A stretch of DNA of 34,407 bases from a virus: the IMG/VR virus record IMGVR_UViG_3300031553_000019, positions 1 to 34,407 of that record; one strand, written 5' to 3'. Positions 3,293 through 33,678 of this stretch are shown in pieces (position 1 is the first letter of the stretch; each line of letters begins with the position of its first letter). The notes beneath the pieces were generated by a model, which was not told the origin of the DNA, made no database searches, and saw only the letters and a list, made by a program, of their open reading frames with translations. Position numbers and translations under genes: made by a program.

Positions 3293-3320
3293 ACTTTGGT
3301 AAACCGCGGTAAACCAAAGT
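3293..3320. promoter_or_regulatory. Dyad symmetry (possible operator or hairpin)
   Basis: Arms ACTTTGGT (3293-3300) and ACCAAAGT (3313-3320) are perfectly complementary, and the centre CCGCGG (3304-3309) is itself palindromic on the same axis. The octamer GGTAAACC also occurs twice as a direct repeat inside it. The element sits just after the stop of the Ig-like gene and overlaps the start of the next small frame. It could be an operator or an RNA hairpin affecting translation. No function can be shown. Confidence 0.5.
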
Positions 3321-3469
3321 TGCCCGAAGTGACCCTGGACGAATGGCTTCAGATATGGGTCGCGCAGAAGATCGCCGATCGCGCTGGCATGAAGTTGTCC
3401 GTGACACGCGCCGGCGCTGGTCTTATAATCGGAATGGGAAGAACGAATGTCGAAAAGGTACAAAGTTAA
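3296..3469 (+). CDS. Hypothetical 57-residue protein
   Basis: An open frame from TTG at 3296 to TAA at 3467-3469 reads LPEVTLDEWLQIWVAQKIAD and then a Gly-rich segment (RAGAGLIIGMGRTN). Its 3' end overlaps the start of the PAPS-reductase gene at 3447. The start is uncertain because the region is taken up by a dyad repeat and lacks the usual AAGGGGG. Codon choice resembles the rest of the phage. The product is not recognised. Confidence 0.4.
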   Translation: MVNRGKPKLPEVTLDEWLQIWVAQKIADRAGMKLSVTRAGAGLIIGMGRTNVEKVQS

Positions 3470-4637
3470 CCTTCTTGACGAATTGAAGCCCCATGTCGAT
3501 ATTCCGTTCAGCGATAAGTACGTCATAACGAAGTCGATTATCGCGCGGAATCTTCGAGAACACAGGGGCAAAGCCGTCGTCGCTTGGTCGGGGGGCAAGG
3601 ATAGCACACTGGTATTATACCTGGTTCGCCAGCTCGAGCCCGATGTATCCGTGGTTTTCAACAACACCGGTGTCGAATATCCGGAAACCGTCGCCTATAT
3701 TCGCGAATTGGCGGATGCCTGGAAACTGAACTTCTTTGAAACGCACCCGGATACTACCTTCTGGAAGGTCGGCGAAAAGTTCGGTTATCCAGGCGGAACC
3801 AAACACGGGCAGAAGAAGATTCGGCGCGGTACGGCTTCCCCGCATTGTTGCTATTACCTGAAGGAAAAGCCGATGTTCGACATAATCCGCGAAAAGGGCT
3901 TTACGTGTTCATTCGACGGAGTAACCGCGGTCGAAAGTTGGGTCCGTATGTTCGTCGCCCGCGATAAGGGCACTTGTTACACGAACAAACATTGGGATAT
4001 TAAGAAGGTCAAGCCGATATTGTACTGGACTGAAGACGAAGTATTCCAGTTCTTCCACGACGAACGAATCCTTCTGAACCCGCTATACGAAAGGGGTATG
4101 ACCAGGGTTGGTTGTATGCCCTGCACTTCGTATAAGACCTGGGAAGAAGATTTGCGACGTGAGAATCCGAAATTGTATTCTATTGTCAAGTTCCGGAAGG
4201 ACGGGTATTATCAGCTTACCCGTCAGGCAATCGAAACCCTTCATTCTTCCGGGTTGAAAGTCGCTTTGTTGACAAAGGCGGGCCCGCTGGCGGCCAGGGA
4301 CTTCGACCTTCTGGAACGCGTCAAATTAACGCAACTTCGATTCGCCTTCGACGAACCTGGAATGGCGACTATCTTCACTGAAAAGATTCGACTGGTTCAA
4401 GAAACCGGATTGTGCAAACAGCCTTTTATTTATGTTTTGGTTGGCTTCAATACGACGTTTGACGAAGACCTGGAACGGTTGAATCTAATACGACGACTTG
4501 GTTGTCGTGCTTATGTAATGCGTTACGATACCGTTCGACTTGAACGACGTTATAATGAATTAGCGCGTTGGGCGAATATGTTTTGGTCATTTGCTAAGTA
4601 CGACTTCCAAGAATTCGTAAGAGTAGTTAGACAATGA
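3447..4637 (+). CDS. Chimeric protein: PAPS-reductase-like (PP-loop) domain fused to radical-SAM fragments
   Basis: Of 396 residues, 1-252 form a phosphoadenosine-phosphosulfate reductase/CysH-like ATP-pyrophosphatase domain: PP-loop SGGKDS at 48-53, CC at 134-135 and CMPC at 223-226, the CC...CxxC pattern that holds a [4Fe-4S] cluster in APS reductases. Phage homologues normally end soon after this. Residues 253-291 are nearly identical to the middle of the SPL-type radical SAM protein encoded at 32896-33678. Residues 292-396 (LRFAFDEPGM, IYVLVGFNTTFDEDLERL, RRYNELARWAN) look like the C-terminal half of a different radical SAM family. No CxxxCxxC cluster motif accompanies them. The N-terminal domain could act in sulfur transfer or DNA modification; the C-terminal part is probably inert. 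A real fusion and an assembly join are both possible. Confidence 0.75.
   Translation: MSKRYKVNLLDELKPHVDIPFSDKYVITKSIIARNLREHRGKAVVAWSGGKDSTLVLYLVRQLEPDVSVVFNNTGVEYPETVAYIRELADAWKLNFFETHPDTTFWKVGEKFGYPGGTKHGQKKIRRGTASPHCCYYLKEKPMFDIIREKGFTCSFDGVTAVESWVRMFVARDKGTCYTNKHWDIKKVKPILYWTEDEVFQFFHDERILLNPLYERGMTRVGCMPCTSYKTWEEDLRRENPKLYSIVKFRKDGYYQLTRQAIETLHSSGLKVALLTKAGPLAARDFDLLERVKLTQLRFAFDEPGMATIFTEKIRLVQETGLCKQPFIYVLVGFNTTFDEDLERLNLIRRLGCRAYVMRYDTVRLERRYNELARWANMFWSFAKYDFQEFVRVVRQ
4205..4320. repeat. 116-bp direct repeat, copy 1 (partner 33156-33271)
   Basis: This segment matches 33156-33271 in the same orientation with two mismatches (at 4211 and 4237); the last 83 bases are identical. The match ends abruptly at CTGGAACGCG on the 3' side. 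It marks the join between the PAPS-reductase part and the radical-SAM part of the chimeric gene. Confidence 0.95.
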
Positions 4638-6115
4638 CGATAAAAACACCGTTTTTGTTGAAGGATGCCGCGACCGTGGTCGGCAGACGGAAGCGCGAAG
4701 ACCTGGCGAACTGGACGAAGACGCCGTCGTCCCTAGCCGAGCATATATCCCGCGGTTCTTACACACGACCGAAGCATATCGAGTACCTTTCGAATCGCAT
4801 TTCGGAGATAGGCGAAAGGCAATGCTTCTTCGTATTCAATCTTCCGCCCCAACACGGGAAAAGCGAACTGGTTTCACACTGGACACCGGTATGGTTCCTT
4901 CGGAAGTTCCCCTGGAAGAAGGTCGGCCTGGCTTCTTACGAAATGGGATATGCTTCCGAATGGGGCGGTAAAGCGAAGGAAACGATAAACGACAATTACG
5001 ACGAACTTCGTCTTCAACTTCGCCAGGACACGAAAGCGAAGGGCCGGTGGAACCTTCGCGGTTACGGCGGTGGCATGTTCGTCGCGGGAATCGGCGGGCC
5101 CTTCACCGGTCGGGGTTTTGACCTGGTCATTATCGATGACCCAATCAAGAACGATGCCGAAGCCCTTTCCGATGTTTACCGCCGGCGGAACTGGAACTGG
5201 TATCGAACGGTTGCGCGGACCCGGCTTGCCCCTGGCGGTTCGATTATCGTCATTATGACCCGCTGGCATGAACAAGATATGGCCGGCGCATTGTTGGGGA
5301 ATCCGCCCGAAGAAGAACAAGAAGGTGTCCTGGACGAAGACGTGCAACCCGATTCCTGGGAATGTATCAATCTTCCCGCGCTGGCGGAAGAAAACGACAT
5401 CCTGGGACGGCGTCCAGGCGAAGCCCTTTGGCCCGAACGGTACAATGAAATCGCCCTTCGTCAAGTTCGAATATCGTCCGGCCCGTTTTGGTGGTCGGCG
5501 CAGTACCGCGGAAAACCACAACCGGAAGGCGGGGGAATCATAAAATTACCCTGGTTCCGTTCATACAAAGACGAAGATTTACCGCCCATGTTTTCGCGTA
5601 AAATCCAGGTGTGGGATACAGCTCACAAGGAACTTCAACGACACGACCGGTCGGCGTGTCTGACGATAGGATACCAGCGAAAACCGCCCAGATACTATTT
5701 GCTTGACTTGTACGTTGCCAGGCTGACGTTCCCCGACCTGATTCGCGCGTCGACGTCGCAGTACGATAAATGGCAACCGGAACGGGTATTGATTGAAGAT
5801 AAGTCTTCCGGAATATCTCTTATTCAGCAATTGCGACGCGATACCACGGTTCCGATTCGAGCGATTAAAGCGATTGACGATAAGGTCACGCGGGCCCATA
5901 CCGTGACCGGTATTATCGAAGCCGGCCAGGTGCTTCTTCCGGAACGGGCCCCGTGGTTGGCCGACTTCCTGAAGGAAATCGGGGACTTCCCGACCGGCGC
6001 GCATGACGATATTGTGGACGTCCTTGTCCACGGGCTTCGTTTTCTACGGCCCAGGTTGGGCGGCGTGGAAGCCGGCGTAATGGGTGAAGAAAAGACGTCG
6101 CACTGGCGCGAGTAA
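4634..6115 (+). CDS. terL: Terminase large subunit (ATPase and nuclease)
   Basis: The 493-residue protein is the packaging motor that pumps DNA into the prohead and cuts it. The ATPase domain has a Walker A in PPQHGKSE (71-78), a Walker B in LVIIDDP (164-170) and coupling motif MTRWHEQD (208-215). The C-terminal RNase-H-like nuclease has its acidic residues in VWDTAHK (D328), LIEDKSSG (E388, D389) and HDDIVD (457-462). Length and motif order are normal for the family. It starts at ATG 4634, overlapping the end of the chimeric gene, with SD-like AGAG only; the coupling may drive initiation. An AT-rich intergenic region follows it. The assignment is certain. Confidence 0.97.
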   Translation: MTIKTPFLLKDAATVVGRRKREDLANWTKTPSSLAEHISRGSYTRPKHIEYLSNRISEIGERQCFFVFNLPPQHGKSELVSHWTPVWFLRKFPWKKVGLASYEMGYASEWGGKAKETINDNYDELRLQLRQDTKAKGRWNLRGYGGGMFVAGIGGPFTGRGFDLVIIDDPIKNDAEALSDVYRRRNWNWYRTVARTRLAPGGSIIVIMTRWHEQDMAGALLGNPPEEEQEGVLDEDVQPDSWECINLPALAEENDILGRRPGEALWPERYNEIALRQVRISSGPFWWSAQYRGKPQPEGGGIIKLPWFRSYKDEDLPPMFSRKIQVWDTAHKELQRHDRSACLTIGYQRKPPRYYLLDLYVARLTFPDLIRASTSQYDKWQPERVLIEDKSSGISLIQQLRRDTTVPIRAIKAIDDKVTRAHTVTGIIEAGQVLLPERAPWLADFLKEIGDFPTGAHDDIVDVLVHGLRFLRPRLGGVEAGVMGEEKTSHWRE

Positions 6116-6347
6116 ATTGAAATTACACTATATTGAACTTTTTCGTAAAATATAATTGACTGAATTAGCTGGAAATCCGTAACTATATTTGAATTTATAA
6201 AAAACAAATTGTTTTCTGAAGGTGCGCAAAACGACTTTTTAAGTGGTTCGCAATGGTACGGGTTATTGTGAACCCGCGGTCACTAGAAAACGAACCGTGA
6301 CATAAAAACATATTGACATTAAAACATAAAAACATATTGACGTTAAA
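6116..6347. other. AT-rich non-coding region after terL with hairpin and repeats
   Basis: No gene with a ribosome site is visible in these 232 bases, which are much richer in A and T than their surroundings. They contain a hairpin at 6259-6276 (CGGGTT, loop ATTGTG, AACCCG), further inverted pairs GGTTCG (6245-6250)/CGAACC and GTCAC/GTGAC, and at the end a 24-bp tandem repeat. Such a region next to terminase could be a packaging site, a regulatory region or a second origin. Nothing in the sequence decides. Confidence 0.6.
6300..6347. repeat. Two tandem 24-bp AT-rich repeats directly before a start codon
   Basis: The units 6300-6323 and 6324-6347 each begin ACATAAAAACATATTGAC and end in TTAAA, with one mismatch (A/G at the base after TTGAC). 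The second unit abuts the ATG at 6348. Each contains a TTGAC hexamer-like element that resembles a -35 box, but no correctly spaced -10 is clear. Confidence 0.85.
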
Positions 6348-6635
6348 ATGTTTATAGTGCCGCCGAAGATTGTTGATGATTGGTTCCGCGATATAGGAAT
6401 CGACGTTGAATCCTGTTATCGGGTCCGGATAGACCACGATAATTTCAAGGCCCGCGTATGGTTGTATGTCCGGGAAGACGGTCTTATCAAGTTCGATCGT
6501 GAAATGAATTGCCTTGTGACCTGGCCGCCGTACGACGTTGACCTGGACGCTATTCCACGATTTGTCGACCGCGAGATATACGGCGATATTCCCGAAGGCT
6601 TCTTGAATCGCCTTCCCTTCCATTCCTGGCCATAG
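6348..6635 (+). CDS. Hypothetical 95-residue protein
   Basis: It reads from an ATG at 6348 immediately after the tandem repeats, without a visible SD. The product has mixed alpha/beta character (KIVDDWFRDIGIDVESCY, RVWLYVREDGLIKFDREM) and is not recognised. Its last 13 codons and stop region lie in the second copy of a 37-bp inverted repeat, so the C-terminus (EGFLNRLPFHSWP) is the reverse-strand reading of the tail of the gene at 300-575. The native C-terminus may therefore have been replaced. Confidence 0.55.
   Translation: MFIVPPKIVDDWFRDIGIDVESCYRVRIDHDNFKARVWLYVREDGLIKFDREMNCLVTWPPYDVDLDAIPRFVDREIYGDIPEGFLNRLPFHSWP
6595..6631. repeat. 37-bp exact inverted repeat, copy A2 (partner 514-550)
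   Basis: This is the perfect reverse complement of 514-550 over 37 bases, with different flanking bases. It covers the 3' end of the gene at 6348-6635 and stops eleven bases before the -35 box of the head-operon promoter. Confidence 0.9.
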
Positions 6636-15984: not shown

Positions 15985-17214
15985 GTGCATCAAATAATGT
16001 TCATAGGGCCATTTACGCCTGATACTACGCAGACTACGTATAAATACGCTCCATTACCTCATAGTATCAGTTATGCTGATTCCAGCAACGAGTCGTTTAT
16101 CGTAGCTGTCGATGGAAAGTTAAGCCATTTAAGATTCAGGGCTTCGGCGGCTCCCGGAGCGGATAAATCGTGGACGTTCACTATCTATAAAAATGACATT
16201 GCTACTAATTTAGCGGTTACTATCGCTGATGACGCTACGACTGGCGAGGATACGATTCACCCGATTTCTGTATCTGCGGGTGATAGAATTCTCATTCTAT
16301 CTACCCCGTCGAATACCCCTGCGATTGCTTATGTGTCAGGCTGTATGCGCTTTACTGGCTCGGGTAATCAGAGTATATTCGGTGTCAGTAGCCCTAATCC
16401 CCTTAATAATGGTGCTACTGAGTATAGTAATGTTCATGGTCAGAATACAAGCTGGGATGCTACCGAGTCGCTTCGTAGACAGGTTATCGGAGCATCTGGG
16501 ACTATTAGCGACCTTCACGTCAGGCTCTTTCAGGCTGACCCCGGTACGTCTCCCGATGCATATAGATTTACACTTCGTAAAGGGGGAGCAAGCCAAACAC
16601 TTACAGTAACCATCACAGCCGACGATACAACGGGCAGTGATACAGAACACAGCTTCCATGTAGACGCGGGAGATATCCTGACTATTATGTGCGAGCCTCT
16701 TGAAGGGCCCGCCAATACTCCGAGGGCCAGTTTCGGATGGTGCTTTACTGCTGATAATGACAATGAGTTTCCTACGATTGCTGGAGGTGATAGTAACATG
16801 GATGAGGCTAAAACCAAGTATGCGCAGATATCAGTCTGTGAAAACTCTATGTTTCGATGGTGGAATACAGAGACCCTTGCCTGTAATGGGAACCTTGATG
16901 CTATGACCGTTAAGGCGCTGTACATGACTTTATCTGCCGCTCCCGGCGCTGGCAATAAATATGACTTCACCCTGAGAAAGAATAGTCAGGATACCGAAAT
17001 TGCATTCGCCATATCAGACTCCGATACCGAGGGCAGTGATACCGGGACGGTAATCGTAGAAGCTGGCGATTATCTTGCGCTTGAAACTGACCCTGACAGT
17101 TTACCCACAGAGGTAGCAGCCCTATACGGCTTCCTTTGCGAAACAGTACCCGAAGAAGTTCCTGGCGGTAGTGGCGGACCCGCGGCTTTGTTGATAGCGA
17201 CGGGCCAAATATAA
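15985..17214 (+). CDS. Three-repeat beta-sandwich virion protein with foreign codon use
   Basis: Starting at GTG 15985 (SD GGGGGTT), this encodes 409 residues with three similar domains of about 120-130 residues, each ending in an AGD strand: VSAGDRILILSTPS, VDAGDILTIMCEPL and VEAGDYLALETDPD. The domains look like jelly-roll modules of phage adhesins. Codon choice differs from neighbours: about half of Glu codons are GAG by eye, AGG/AGA and CTC occur, and A+T is higher, whereas flanking genes almost always use GAA. Only the last few codons return to native style. This suggests recent acquisition of a host-range or decoration module. Copy B1 of a 37-bp inverted repeat lies in domain three. Confidence 0.7.
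   Translation: MHQIMFIGPFTPDTTQTTYKYAPLPHSISYADSSNESFIVAVDGKLSHLRFRASAAPGADKSWTFTIYKNDIATNLAVTIADDATTGEDTIHPISVSAGDRILILSTPSNTPAIAYVSGCMRFTGSGNQSIFGVSSPNPLNNGATEYSNVHGQNTSWDATESLRRQVIGASGTISDLHVRLFQADPGTSPDAYRFTLRKGGASQTLTVTITADDTTGSDTEHSFHVDAGDILTIMCEPLEGPANTPRASFGWCFTADNDNEFPTIAGGDSNMDEAKTKYAQISVCENSMFRWWNTETLACNGNLDAMTVKALYMTLSAAPGAGNKYDFTLRKNSQDTEIAFAISDSDTEGSDTGTVIVEAGDYLALETDPDSLPTEVAALYGFLCETVPEEVPGGSGGPAALLIATGQI
17054..17090. repeat. 37-bp exact inverted repeat, copy B1 (partner 28082-28118)
   Basis: Beginning TCGTAGAAGCTGGCG and ending GCTTGAAACTGA, this matches 28082-28118 in reverse complement with no mismatch over exactly 37 bases. It encodes VEAGDYLALETD of the third beta domain, where its sequence fits the domain's own repeat pattern. 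Confidence 0.9.
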
Positions 17215-27615: not shown

Positions 27616-28326
27616 ATGGCAAAGGAAAAGAAGAAGACCACGGACAAGAAGCGGAAGCAACAAAAGAAGCCGTCGGAAACCGTCCAGCGGGTTCAGGTTC
27701 CGAAAGCTGAAGACGAACCGCCCGCACCGACAACCGAGCCCGCGACCCCGCCCGTTATTGTCAACCTGTGCGACGAATGTCTGTACGAATTCGGGGAATG
27801 TGACGGGGTCCCGAAGTTTGCCGGCGAAGGCGACGACCGCGTTATCGAGTGTTCGGTATATGTGAACGTCGAAACTTTACCGACGGCGTCCGAATTAGAA
27901 GGGGCCGCGCAAAGCCCCGCGGCCCCTTCTGGCCAGGGTATAAAATCCGAAATGCGCGTGTGTGACGTCGAACATATCCGCGAATACCCTGGTTGTTATG
28001 AAGAATGTATGAAGGAAGAATGCGACGGCGTCCCGATCGACCAGGTTTCCCAGGAAGAAGAACCCGAAGAACCCGACCAGCTCAGTTTCAAGCGCAAGAT
28101 AATCGCCAGCTTCTACGAGGCGAAAACCCCGATTCCGAATCTTCCGGAAAGGCCGGACATTCACCGGTTCGAAGAAGACGAAACCGATTACGGGAATTGT
28201 CCGGGCTGTGAAACACCACTGAAAAGGACGGCCTACAACCGGTACAATGATGCAATCCGCTGTACGAACCCGCGGTGTCGCCAGTATCGGAATATCGTTC
28301 GTACCATTCCGACGGGGGTCAGGTAA
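27616..28326 (+). CDS. Zinc protein of the recombination module
   Basis: ATG 27616 with AAAAGGGGGAA upstream gives 236 residues; a longer frame begins inside the previous gene and is not accepted. The N-terminus is highly basic (EKKKTTDKKRKQQKK). Two Cys clusters occur in the middle (CDECLYEFGEC and CYEECMKEEC) and a clear zinc ribbon at the C-terminus (CPGCETPLKR with CTNPRCRQYR). Between them, residues encoded by 28082-28118 (LSFKRKIIASFYE) come from the copy of a 37-bp inverted repeat shared with a virion gene. A nucleic-acid-binding role is inferred from the zinc ribbon and basic start. Confidence 0.6.
   Translation: MAKEKKKTTDKKRKQQKKPSETVQRVQVPKAEDEPPAPTTEPATPPVIVNLCDECLYEFGECDGVPKFAGEGDDRVIECSVYVNVETLPTASELEGAAQSPAAPSGQGIKSEMRVCDVEHIREYPGCYEECMKEECDGVPIDQVSQEEEPEEPDQLSFKRKIIASFYEAKTPIPNLPERPDIHRFEEDETDYGNCPGCETPLKRTAYNRYNDAIRCTNPRCRQYRNIVRTIPTGVR
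28082..28118. repeat. 37-bp exact inverted repeat, copy B2 (partner 17054-17090)
   Basis: This is the perfect reverse complement of 17054-17090 over exactly 37 bases, with differing flanks. It codes for a short segment in the middle of the zinc protein. Confidence 0.9.
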
Positions 28327-30723: not shown

Positions 30724-31416
30724 ATGGGGGCCGAAAGTCGATTATTACTCGACGAAAGGCCCCTGGTCGTCATTCCCGAACTGGCTTGTTCTATCGGCTT
30801 GAAGAACGCGATTGTCCTTCAACAAGTCCACTATTGGGTTCGACGGAATCAGCGGGCCGAACGAAACTTTCACAACGGTTACTTCTGGACGTACAACACG
30901 TTCGAAGACTGGCAGAAGCAATTCCCTTTTTGGTCAGTATCGACGATAAAGCGAATCTTCGCCGATCTGGAAAAGAAGGGGCTTTTGATAACCGGACGTT
31001 ACAACCGCCTGAATATCGACCGGACGACCTGGTATCGAATAAATTACGAACGGCTTTCCGATAGTGTCAAATTGACACAATGGTCGTGTCAACTTGACAC
31101 TATGCATAGTGTCAACCTGACACGACCATTACCAGAGACTAACACAGATATATTAAACGATAAGAAGATAGAGATATGGCAAAAAACATTATCTTCTTTG
31201 AAGGGCCAGGTGAACAAATCGAATTTCAATACCTGGCTGGTCGACCTGGAACCGTTATCGTTCGACGGCGAAGTCTTCGTCGTCGGCGCCAAGAATACGT
31301 TTATTGCTGAATACCTGGAAAAGAACCTTCGGTCGCTGATTGAAAAGGAACTGACGACCGCTTCCGAAACGAGCATCCAGGTTTCCTTCCAGGTACGAAC
31401 CGGAAAGGAAGAATAG
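30724..31416 (+). CDS. Replication initiator: winged helix fused to DnaA domain I
   Basis: Residues 1-110 of this 230-residue protein form a winged-helix unit typical of phage replication initiators (LKNAIVLQQVHYWVRRNQ, WSVSTIKRIFADLEKKGLLIT, TWYRINYERL). Residues 149-225 match DnaA domain I: IWQKTLSSLKGQVNKSNFNTW lines up with LWQQCL..LP..EFSMW of E. coli DnaA, then FVVGAKNTFIAEYLEKNL with YAPNRFVLDWVRDKY. Domain I binds DnaB helicase in bacteria, so this protein could bind the phage origin and load host helicase. No AAA+ motor is present. The linker region is encoded by the iterons and AT-rich sequence of a likely origin. The domain calls are strong and the mechanism is inferred. Confidence 0.85.
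   Translation: MGAESRLLLDERPLVVIPELACSIGLKNAIVLQQVHYWVRRNQRAERNFHNGYFWTYNTFEDWQKQFPFWSVSTIKRIFADLEKKGLLITGRYNRLNIDRTTWYRINYERLSDSVKLTQWSCQLDTMHSVNLTRPLPETNTDILNDKKIEIWQKTLSSLKGQVNKSNFNTWLVDLEPLSFDGEVFVVGAKNTFIAEYLEKNLRSLIEKELTTASETSIQVSFQVRTGKEE
31064..31200. other. Probable replication origin inside the initiator gene
   Basis: Three 15-bp dyads lie at 31064-31078 (GTGTCAA-A-TTGACAC), 31086-31100 (GTGTCAA-C-TTGACAC) and 31109-31123 (GTGTCAA-C-CTGACAC), with starts 22 and 23 bases apart, close to two helical turns. Copies two and three belong to a 52-bp near-palindrome (31079-31130) centred on ACTATGCATAGT. From about 31131 to 31200 the sequence is AT-rich (e.g. ACAGATATATTAAACGATAA), suitable for unwinding. 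The arrangement equals iterons plus unwinding region inside lambda O. Confidence 0.8.
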
Positions 31417-32105: not shown

Positions 32106-32261
32106 ATGGAAGAATTGAAGGAACTGGCCCGAAAAGCGTTCCGATCCGAAATCAAGTTTTATCGCGCTTGGTTTCGCCTGAAGCGTTCAGTTCAGATTAT
32201 CAACGAAACGATTTATTGGGGCCCGGGAAATGAAGCGGGATACGACAATGACCGCAGTTAA
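32106..32261 (+). CDS. Hypothetical 51-residue basic protein
   Basis: ATG 32106 with AAAGGGGATA upstream reads MEELKELARKAFRSEIKFYR, then a basic helix (WFRLKRSVQIINETIYWG), and stops at 32259-32261. It overlaps the start of the DnaA-domain-IV gene by 14 bases. Too short for a family call, but ribosome site and codon style support it. Confidence 0.55.
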   Translation: MEELKELARKAFRSEIKFYRAWFRLKRSVQIINETIYWGPGNEAGYDNDRS

Positions 32262-32748
32262 TGCCAACGATCTTCCGGAAGAAGTACTGGAACGAATCGG
32301 CCTATCGAAAAGCAACGGGAAACTGACCGCGGAAGCGAACAATAAGGTCGCGGCCCTGGGTAAAATTCTTCAGATTGTCGGTTCAATGTCGAAGACCGAT
32401 GCCCGTTGGGTACTGGCCGAAGCCATGTCATATTGTCGGGCCGAACGTGATAATTCCGATCCTAGAACGGTAATCCAGGTTGTCGCGAAGTTCTTCAATA
32501 TCCCGCCAGCGGAAATCCTGGGTCGCCGGCGTAATGAAGTCGTTGTTCATGCCAGGCAAATCGTCATGTACTTATTATGGTTGTCGAATCGATATACCCT
32601 TCAGCAGATCGGCGACGCCCTGGGTAATCGGTCGCCGGCGACTATAAGTTACGGTTTCCAGACCGTCGGCCGGCAGATGTCAAAAGACCCCGTCATGGCC
32701 GACTGGCTGAAGCAAATCGCTATCGAATTAGATTGGAGTTTACCATAG
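32248..32748 (+). CDS. Stand-alone DnaA domain IV (DNA-binding) protein
   Basis: The ATG at 32248 with GCGGGA eight bases upstream is preferred; ATG 32230 adds six residues. Of 166 residues, 73-145 match the C-terminal DNA-binding domain of DnaA: VIQVVAKFFNIPPAEILGRRR, then HARQIVMYLLWLSNRYTLQQIGDALG and NRSPATISYGFQTV. The AAA+ domain is missing and the N-terminal 70 residues are an unrelated helical part. Within the signature loop, E. coli GRDHTTV reads NRSPATI, so the residues that contact bases (D433, H434, T435 in E. coli) are changed while the arginines before and RQ are kept. It probably binds DNA with a specificity other than the DnaA box, perhaps at the phage origin. Confidence 0.85.
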   Translation: MTAVNANDLPEEVLERIGLSKSNGKLTAEANNKVAALGKILQIVGSMSKTDARWVLAEAMSYCRAERDNSDPRTVIQVVAKFFNIPPAEILGRRRNEVVVHARQIVMYLLWLSNRYTLQQIGDALGNRSPATISYGFQTVGRQMSKDPVMADWLKQIAIELDWSLP

Positions 32749-32912
32749 TAAACAAAAGGGTAAAATCATATTGGTTGCGTCTACGTGACGGAACCGGCGG
32801 GGCGGTTTCCGAAGGCGTATCACTTGAAGACGCTTGCCGAAGAGCTGGTGTCCGTGTTGAAGACGTTGAAGTTATTAACGTAAAAGAGGTAGACAATGAT
32901 ATACGAGACTAG
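32733..32912 (+). CDS. Hypothetical small protein overlapping the radical SAM gene start
   Basis: An open frame from a TTG at 32733 to TAG at 32910-32912 contains VKSYWLRLRDGTGGAVSEGV followed by SLEDACRRAGVRVEDVEVINVKE, which reads like a genuine small alpha/beta protein. The true start is unclear: AAAAGGG at 32754-32760 lies inside it and a TTG at 32775 is 14 bases further. The 3' end overlaps the radical SAM gene. Not recognised. Confidence 0.4.
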   Translation: MEFTIVNKRVKSYWLRLRDGTGGAVSEGVSLEDACRRAGVRVEDVEVINVKEVDNDIRD

Positions 32913-33678
32913 GGGCAGAGCCCGCGAATACTTCGAACTGGCGGCGAACCTGTATTCCGGTTGTGAACACGGGTGCGTTTATTGCTTTGGGCCCGACATA
33001 TTGAGTAAGAATCGCGCCGACTTTGTCCAGCGGGCGTCACCGCGGAAGGATGCCATAAAGCAACTAGTGCGGGACGCCGACCGCTTATCTAGGCGGGGGG
33101 AAACCCGTCATATCCTTTTATCGTTCGTGACCGATCCGTACCAGCCGGCGGACGTGTATTACCAGCTTACCCGTCAGGCAATCGAAATCCTTCATTCTTC
33201 CGGGTTGAAAGTCGCTTTGTTGACAAAGGCGGGCCCGCTGGCGGCCAGGGACTTCGACCTTCTGGAACGCGACGATTTATTCGGCCAAACGCTGACATTG
33301 ATCGATCAGCGCCGGTCGGTAGTGTGGGAACCGAACGCGGCGCTTCCGGAAGCACGAATGGCAAACCTGAAGGAAGCGTATCTGCGCGGGATAGGAACCT
33401 GGGTATCATGCGAACCGGTAATTGACCCAATGGAAACGCTGGCTTGTATATCCGCGACCGCCGATTATGTCCAGCATTACAAGGTCGGAACCCTGAATTA
33501 TCCACGGAAGATTCCACAGGATTTGCGGCCCGTGGTCGAAAGGATAGACTGGAAAGCGTTCGCGCAGAATGTCGTAATCCTATTGAACCGCCTGGGTAAG
33601 TCGTACTATATCAAGAAGGACTTGGCCCGGTTCCTGAGAAAACCCGACGGAATACTTGTCGGCGGGTTTCCGAAGTAA
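32896..33678 (+). CDS. SPL-type radical SAM protein
   Basis: At 260 residues, this enzyme has the radical SAM cluster motif CEHGCVYC (23-30, C-x3-C-x2-C), typical of the SplB/COG1533 family related to spore photoproduct lyase. ILLSFVTDPYQPAD and LKVALLTKAGPLAARD are conserved strand-loop parts, and VSCEPVIDPMETL a later one. Members use S-adenosylmethionine to start radical chemistry; phage versions have no proven substrate, with DNA repair or modification suggested. SD AGAGGTAGAC lies upstream of ATG 32896. Its central 116 bp recur in the chimeric gene at 3447-4637. Confidence 0.85.
   Translation: MIYETRGRAREYFELAANLYSGCEHGCVYCFGPDILSKNRADFVQRASPRKDAIKQLVRDADRLSRRGETRHILLSFVTDPYQPADVYYQLTRQAIEILHSSGLKVALLTKAGPLAARDFDLLERDDLFGQTLTLIDQRRSVVWEPNAALPEARMANLKEAYLRGIGTWVSCEPVIDPMETLACISATADYVQHYKVGTLNYPRKIPQDLRPVVERIDWKAFAQNVVILLNRLGKSYYIKKDLARFLRKPDGILVGGFPK
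33156..33271. repeat. 116-bp direct repeat, copy 2 (partner 4205-4320)
   Basis: This copy matches 4205-4320 with two mismatches. Here it fits the surrounding radical SAM protein on both sides, so this is the likely parent copy. Confidence 0.95.

Follow-up and report, generated by a model that had tools for sequence, protein, structure and literature searches.

The open frame at positions 3447-4637 (+ strand) of the window, by which we mean the whole 34,407-nt stretch of viral DNA analysed here, is probably a young illegitimate-recombination scar with a templated filler in the genome of a tailed phage, running in frame into the start of the terminase large subunit gene (TerL). Translation of the window gives 396 codons without a stop, and the predicted 396-residue product overlaps the TerL start. 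At the level of the assembled sequence the chimera is real, with three sources combined in one frame: a PAPS-reductase-like domain, a copied fragment of an SPL-type radical SAM gene and the C-terminal half of a second type of radical SAM protein. This three-part make-up had been proposed in a preliminary description of the DNA, and profile matches together with a direct repeat bear out all three pieces. As we can identify the donated stretch, the locus that received it and the two parental gene forms, the frame would show how one cargo gene is swapped for another by illegitimate joining and a self-copied filler, steps that usually stay invisible because such scars decay. Labelling it a PAPS reductase/radical SAM fusion enzyme would be misleading.

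The first part (3447-4214, +, residues 1-256) is a complete PAPS-reductase-like PP-loop domain. Profile searches match residues 43-228 to PF01507 (PAPS_reduct, 4e-29) and residues 24-312 to phrog_424 (1e-41), and the PP-loop motif SGGKDS combined with the whole-domain match places the domain in the PAPS/APS-reductase-like family (PF01507, phrog_424). The CC...CxxC cysteines of the APS-reductase type are present (C134, C135, C223 and C226) and invariant among four relatives, and Foldseek matches CysH structures (E = 4.5e-13). The nearest relative, with 60% identity to the PAPS part, is a free-standing gene of 262 aa in a related phage (L020, ending in RKDGHFQPEMKINKASVPE); the PAPS part ends at about residue 256, and only the last few residues of this homologue are missing. 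The earlier reading of residues 1-252 as a full PAPS reductase with PP-loop and CC...CxxC thus holds for the domain but not for its boundary, which was set about four residues early at 252/253: comparison with L020 assigns FRKDGYYQ to the native PAPS sequence. True CysH, the assimilatory sulfonucleotide reductase, is marked by a C-terminal catalytic cysteine motif of the ECG-H type. Because this motif is absent from the translated frame and from the relatives L020, L023 and L024, we name the domain "PAPS-reductase-like". Phage PAPS-reductase-like genes (phrog_424, PF01507) have the PP-loop, the CC...CxxC cysteines and the L020 gene size in common with it, whereas the window protein differs from them by a tail of 140 residues that is foreign in origin.

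The middle of the frame repeats 33150-33279 in direct orientation (95% over 130 nt). Its core, the filler at 4212-4320 (+), equals the donor segment at 33163-33271 (+) except for one mismatch in 109 nt, which is flanked by exact runs of 25 and 83 nt; the 130-nt extent at 95% takes in, on the left side, a local similarity between the PAPS end and the SPL gene. The donor is an intact SPL-type radical SAM gene (32896-33678, +; PF04055, 1e-9, and alignment with relatives) that is syntenic in G001, G002, G004 and G006, and the derivation from this gene of the stretch behind the PAPS end, first described as residues 253-291, is confirmed. In a self-BLAST the filler matches the donor with E = 2e-54. 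The repeat is far beyond chance, since chance-like dispersed exact repeats in the window and its relatives, leaving aside overlaps at the termini and repeats of the tail or tandem type, end near 20 nt. The single substitution, at 4237, changes Ile to Thr and lies away from the joints; because only this 1 of 109 nt is mismatched, the event appears to be young.

Both joints look illegitimate. At the first, the 13 nt preceding the filler agree with the donor at 11 positions, a stretch of microhomology at which the native PAPS end RKDGYYQ (RKDGHFQ in L020) coincidentally matches SPL codons. At the second, similarity to the donor stops after GAACGCG and 5 of the next 8 nt match; we infer the exact position of this joint, because the native radical SAM sequence to its left is lost. 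When the profiles of both radical SAM families were compared to see whether the second joint falls at structurally equivalent points, the alignment was confined to the Fe-S motif; a local alignment of low confidence places ILHSSGLKV opposite QLFSNGLSV. Judged by eye, the filler might supply the same helix-strand-helix.

The third part (4321-4634, +) encodes a C-terminal portion (105 residues) of a radical SAM protein of the phrog_9298 type, from which the Fe-S half is absent. Residues 286-391 match positions 183-292 of the 305 in phrog_9298 (5e-15), in agreement with the initial assignment of residues 292-396 to the C-terminal part of a second radical SAM group, and identity is 59-63% to the homologues in L003, L012 and L089 and 46% to that in L090. 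The window gene resembles these phage genes in the C-terminal 100 residues and in the place before TerL, but lacks the N-terminal ~190 residues that carry CxxxCPFC. Likewise, no CxxxCxxC cluster motif, which the L003 homologue has at residues 105-112, is present in the frame, just as had been noticed at the outset; the missing N-terminal half of the gene, which the preliminary description suggested looking for, is absent elsewhere in the record.

How these parts came together can be read from the terS-TerL intervals of relatives, which were gathered through TerL. In four of them (L003, L012, L089 and L090) the interval contains a full-length radical SAM gene (~293-304 aa, with CxxxCPFC), while in L020 the 262-aa PAPS-like gene lies directly upstream of TerL and abuts it. 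A cytosine methyltransferase is found in the interval of L019 and L089, the latter with a further methyltransferase gene between radical SAM and TerL, and a different PP-loop gene in that of L013 and L021. Since the relatives carry such varied genes, the interval is a cargo site. In the window, a stub of a cytosine methyltransferase (2656-2844, +; 54 of 231 residues) remains by the terminase small subunit, and the interval has therefore lost DNA more than once. In L003 and L089 a small leader ORF runs into the beginning of the radical SAM gene; here the same leader (3296-3469, +) overlaps the PAPS start, and the final 28 nt leading to the ATG are near-identical (CTTATAATcGGAATGGGAAGaacGAATG precedes PAPS in the window, CTTATAATtGGAATGGGAAGgtcGAATG precedes radical SAM in L003). 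On the 3' side, the radical SAM C-half overlaps its natural downstream neighbour TerL (4634-6115, +; phrog_38, 4e-98), as in L003. Because the context of leader, C-half and TerL is that of the relatives, the PAPS-like sequence and the filler appear to have replaced about the first 190 codons (~570 nt) of the radical SAM gene.

The preliminary description had offered either a double recombination that built a new fusion or an assembly that joined three loci. The parental gene forms and the leader and TerL neighbours seen in relatives support the former. They also speak against a joining of three distant loci, because the leader and TerL are the radical SAM gene's natural neighbours and the donor is intact in its syntenic place; it was at this gene's own locus that the PAPS-like gene and the 109-nt filler displaced its 5' half. 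Overall, the window genome is collinear with the four relatives compared, with TerL and the SPL donor in syntenic places and the leader so placed in the two relatives that have it. An assembly or library artefact, in which PAPS, SPL and radical SAM reads, maybe of several related phages, were joined via a common stretch, is in our judgement unlikely. Such an error might be expected from a repeat that holds an 83-nt exact match and would suit a fusion that occurs in one genome only among the records searched, but it has to contend with the syntenic positions of leader, TerL and SPL gene, with a substitution specific to the filler (4237) that is not located at the joints, and with the fact that a join through a repeat would exchange flanks and not insert a copy. 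The proposed search for the same fusion in other genomes gave no match in phage records, viral contigs, or bacterial and archaeal genomes, a set that possibly left out near-identical records, and the DNA pattern of the junctions likewise had no match in viral contigs.

For the favoured illegitimate-recombination scar, we envisage that PAPS DNA entered at the junction of leader and start codon and that the filler copied from the SPL gene connected its 3' end to a point midway through the radical SAM gene. Template switching may have made the filler, or a short strand may have annealed at microhomology, as happens in short-patch double illegitimate recombination (SPDIR), a process described in Acinetobacter baylyi. 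Alternatively, the PAPS-like gene could have been present earlier, followed by an independent radical SAM gene in the arrangement of L004 and L030. As in events of the SPDIR type, a short intragenomic segment lies between two illegitimate joints, and the window appears to share with SPDIR and other templated insertions the use of short same-genome segments in either orientation; microhomology is clear at the first joint (11 of 13 nt) and weak at the second (5 of 8 nt). It differs in that the genome is that of a phage and that one 109-nt filler sits at a joint which also replaced ~570 nt of a gene. In the literature on SPDIR and on PAPS/radical SAM fusions we found no paper directly on such a case.

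A quite different history, an old tandem cargo of PAPS-like gene, SPL paralogue and radical SAM gene that was eroded via two independent deletions, is very improbable. The decayed methyltransferase gene at 2656-2844 does attest to erosion in the same interval. Against this, a single mismatch in 109 nt separates filler and donor, compared with differences at 36-44% of residues for the SPL genes of relatives; the similarity ends abruptly on both sides; and in none of the relatives compared does an SPL gene lie between terS and TerL. An old SPL duplication is disfavoured by the same near identity and abrupt ends.

The product of the scar most likely works as a PAPS-like PP-loop enzyme with a useless or passive C-terminal tail; the radical SAM part has no cluster motif. 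In an AF2 model built from 14 sequences, the PP-loop domain is predicted with confidence, the filler has pLDDT <50 and the radical SAM half is of moderate confidence (~70-89). The frame may be tolerated or kept, as it is free of stops up to the overlapping TerL start. When random 109-nt fillers were simulated in the chimera's setting, ~10% remained in frame and open, and the open frame is therefore weak evidence of a selective filter. Compared with its intact homologues, the radical SAM C-half has no excess of unique changes and no acceleration, but this selection test cannot speak to use because the event is too young (1/109 nt).

These data also bear on a functional fusion, in which a C-terminal domain under selection (filler plus radical SAM half) was added to the PAPS-like enzyme, perhaps preserving a contact that exists elsewhere between PAPS-like and radical SAM partners. 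We consider it improbable. A frame open through both joints, a C-half as conserved as its intact homologues (59-63% identity to L003, L012 and L089) and predicted at pLDDT ~70-89, and the adjoining PAPS-like and radical SAM genes of L004 and L030 would all fit such an enzyme; its filler, however, is predicted to be unstructured, the Fe-S motif is missing, no second genome among the records searched carries the fusion, and an event with 1 mismatch in 109 nt is too young for conservation to reveal use. In two distant phages, separate radical SAM genes (7142-8047 in L004 and 5737-6630 in L030) lie directly 3' of PAPS-like genes, which suggests a functional pair, and a working PAPS-like/radical SAM partnership in other phages is possible.

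The filler is not the only ectopic copy in this genome. Exact dispersed repeats of at least 25 nt in the window comprise the filler pair and two 37-nt inverted pairs. One of these, at 28082-28118 (+), reproduces the tail-gene repeat at 17054-17090 exactly and in inverted orientation, and lies in frame in a variable linker of a conserved ORF whose homologues in six relatives are without the patch. The other, at 6595-6631 (+), is an exact inverted copy of 514-550, whose original context is a conserved ORF (with the motif PGMxxxAIxEA in L003 and L012); the copy lies immediately ahead of a conserved palindrome and marks the right edge of an extra TerL-portal segment that is unmatched in the compared relatives. 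Dispersed repeats in the window reach E values of 4e-12 and 2e-54, whereas six related genomes, end overlaps excepted, contain none of comparable significance (best E ~7e-5). That all three ectopic copies are near-exact is also what a common technical cause, and hence the artefact considered above, would produce. Set against this, the frame is kept both at the filler and at 28082-28118, where random fillers would keep it in ~10% and, for simulated 37-nt fillers in the chimera's setting, ~19% of trials. Taken together, the evidence from frame, synteny and substitution appears to favour real scars over an artefact.

A broader interpretation, tentative and in our estimate unlikely, is that this phage or its host has an unusual tendency to copy short stretches of its genome into other genes, with the result that fillers time and again bridge cargo-gene exchanges and yield in-frame chimeras. 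If true, the three fresh patches within 34 kb would capture this process in a snapshot. The extra TerL-portal segment itself contains an ORF (6348-6635) and an 18-nt direct repeat at 6300-6341.

Several further features of the genome and its relatives came to light. A conserved palindrome close to GTGTCAAGTTGACAC occurs in the window at 6635, 31064, 31086 and 31109 (4 occurrences versus 0.35 expected per 34 kb, with at most 3 mismatches) and at similar places in G001-G006; the sites fall in the TerL-portal gap in several relatives and form repeats spaced by 22-23 nt near a replication gene of the DnaA_N-like type. It is possible that the palindrome serves as origin iterons and operator. The DnaA N-terminal domain and the DnaA C-terminal helix-turn-helix are found in two separate phage proteins, encoded at 30724-31416 and 32230-32748. 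Finally, TerL of two relatives (L019, 1210-2172; L020, 1624-2544) contains an intein-like in-frame insertion of ~310-320 residues at the P-loop (PPQHGK).
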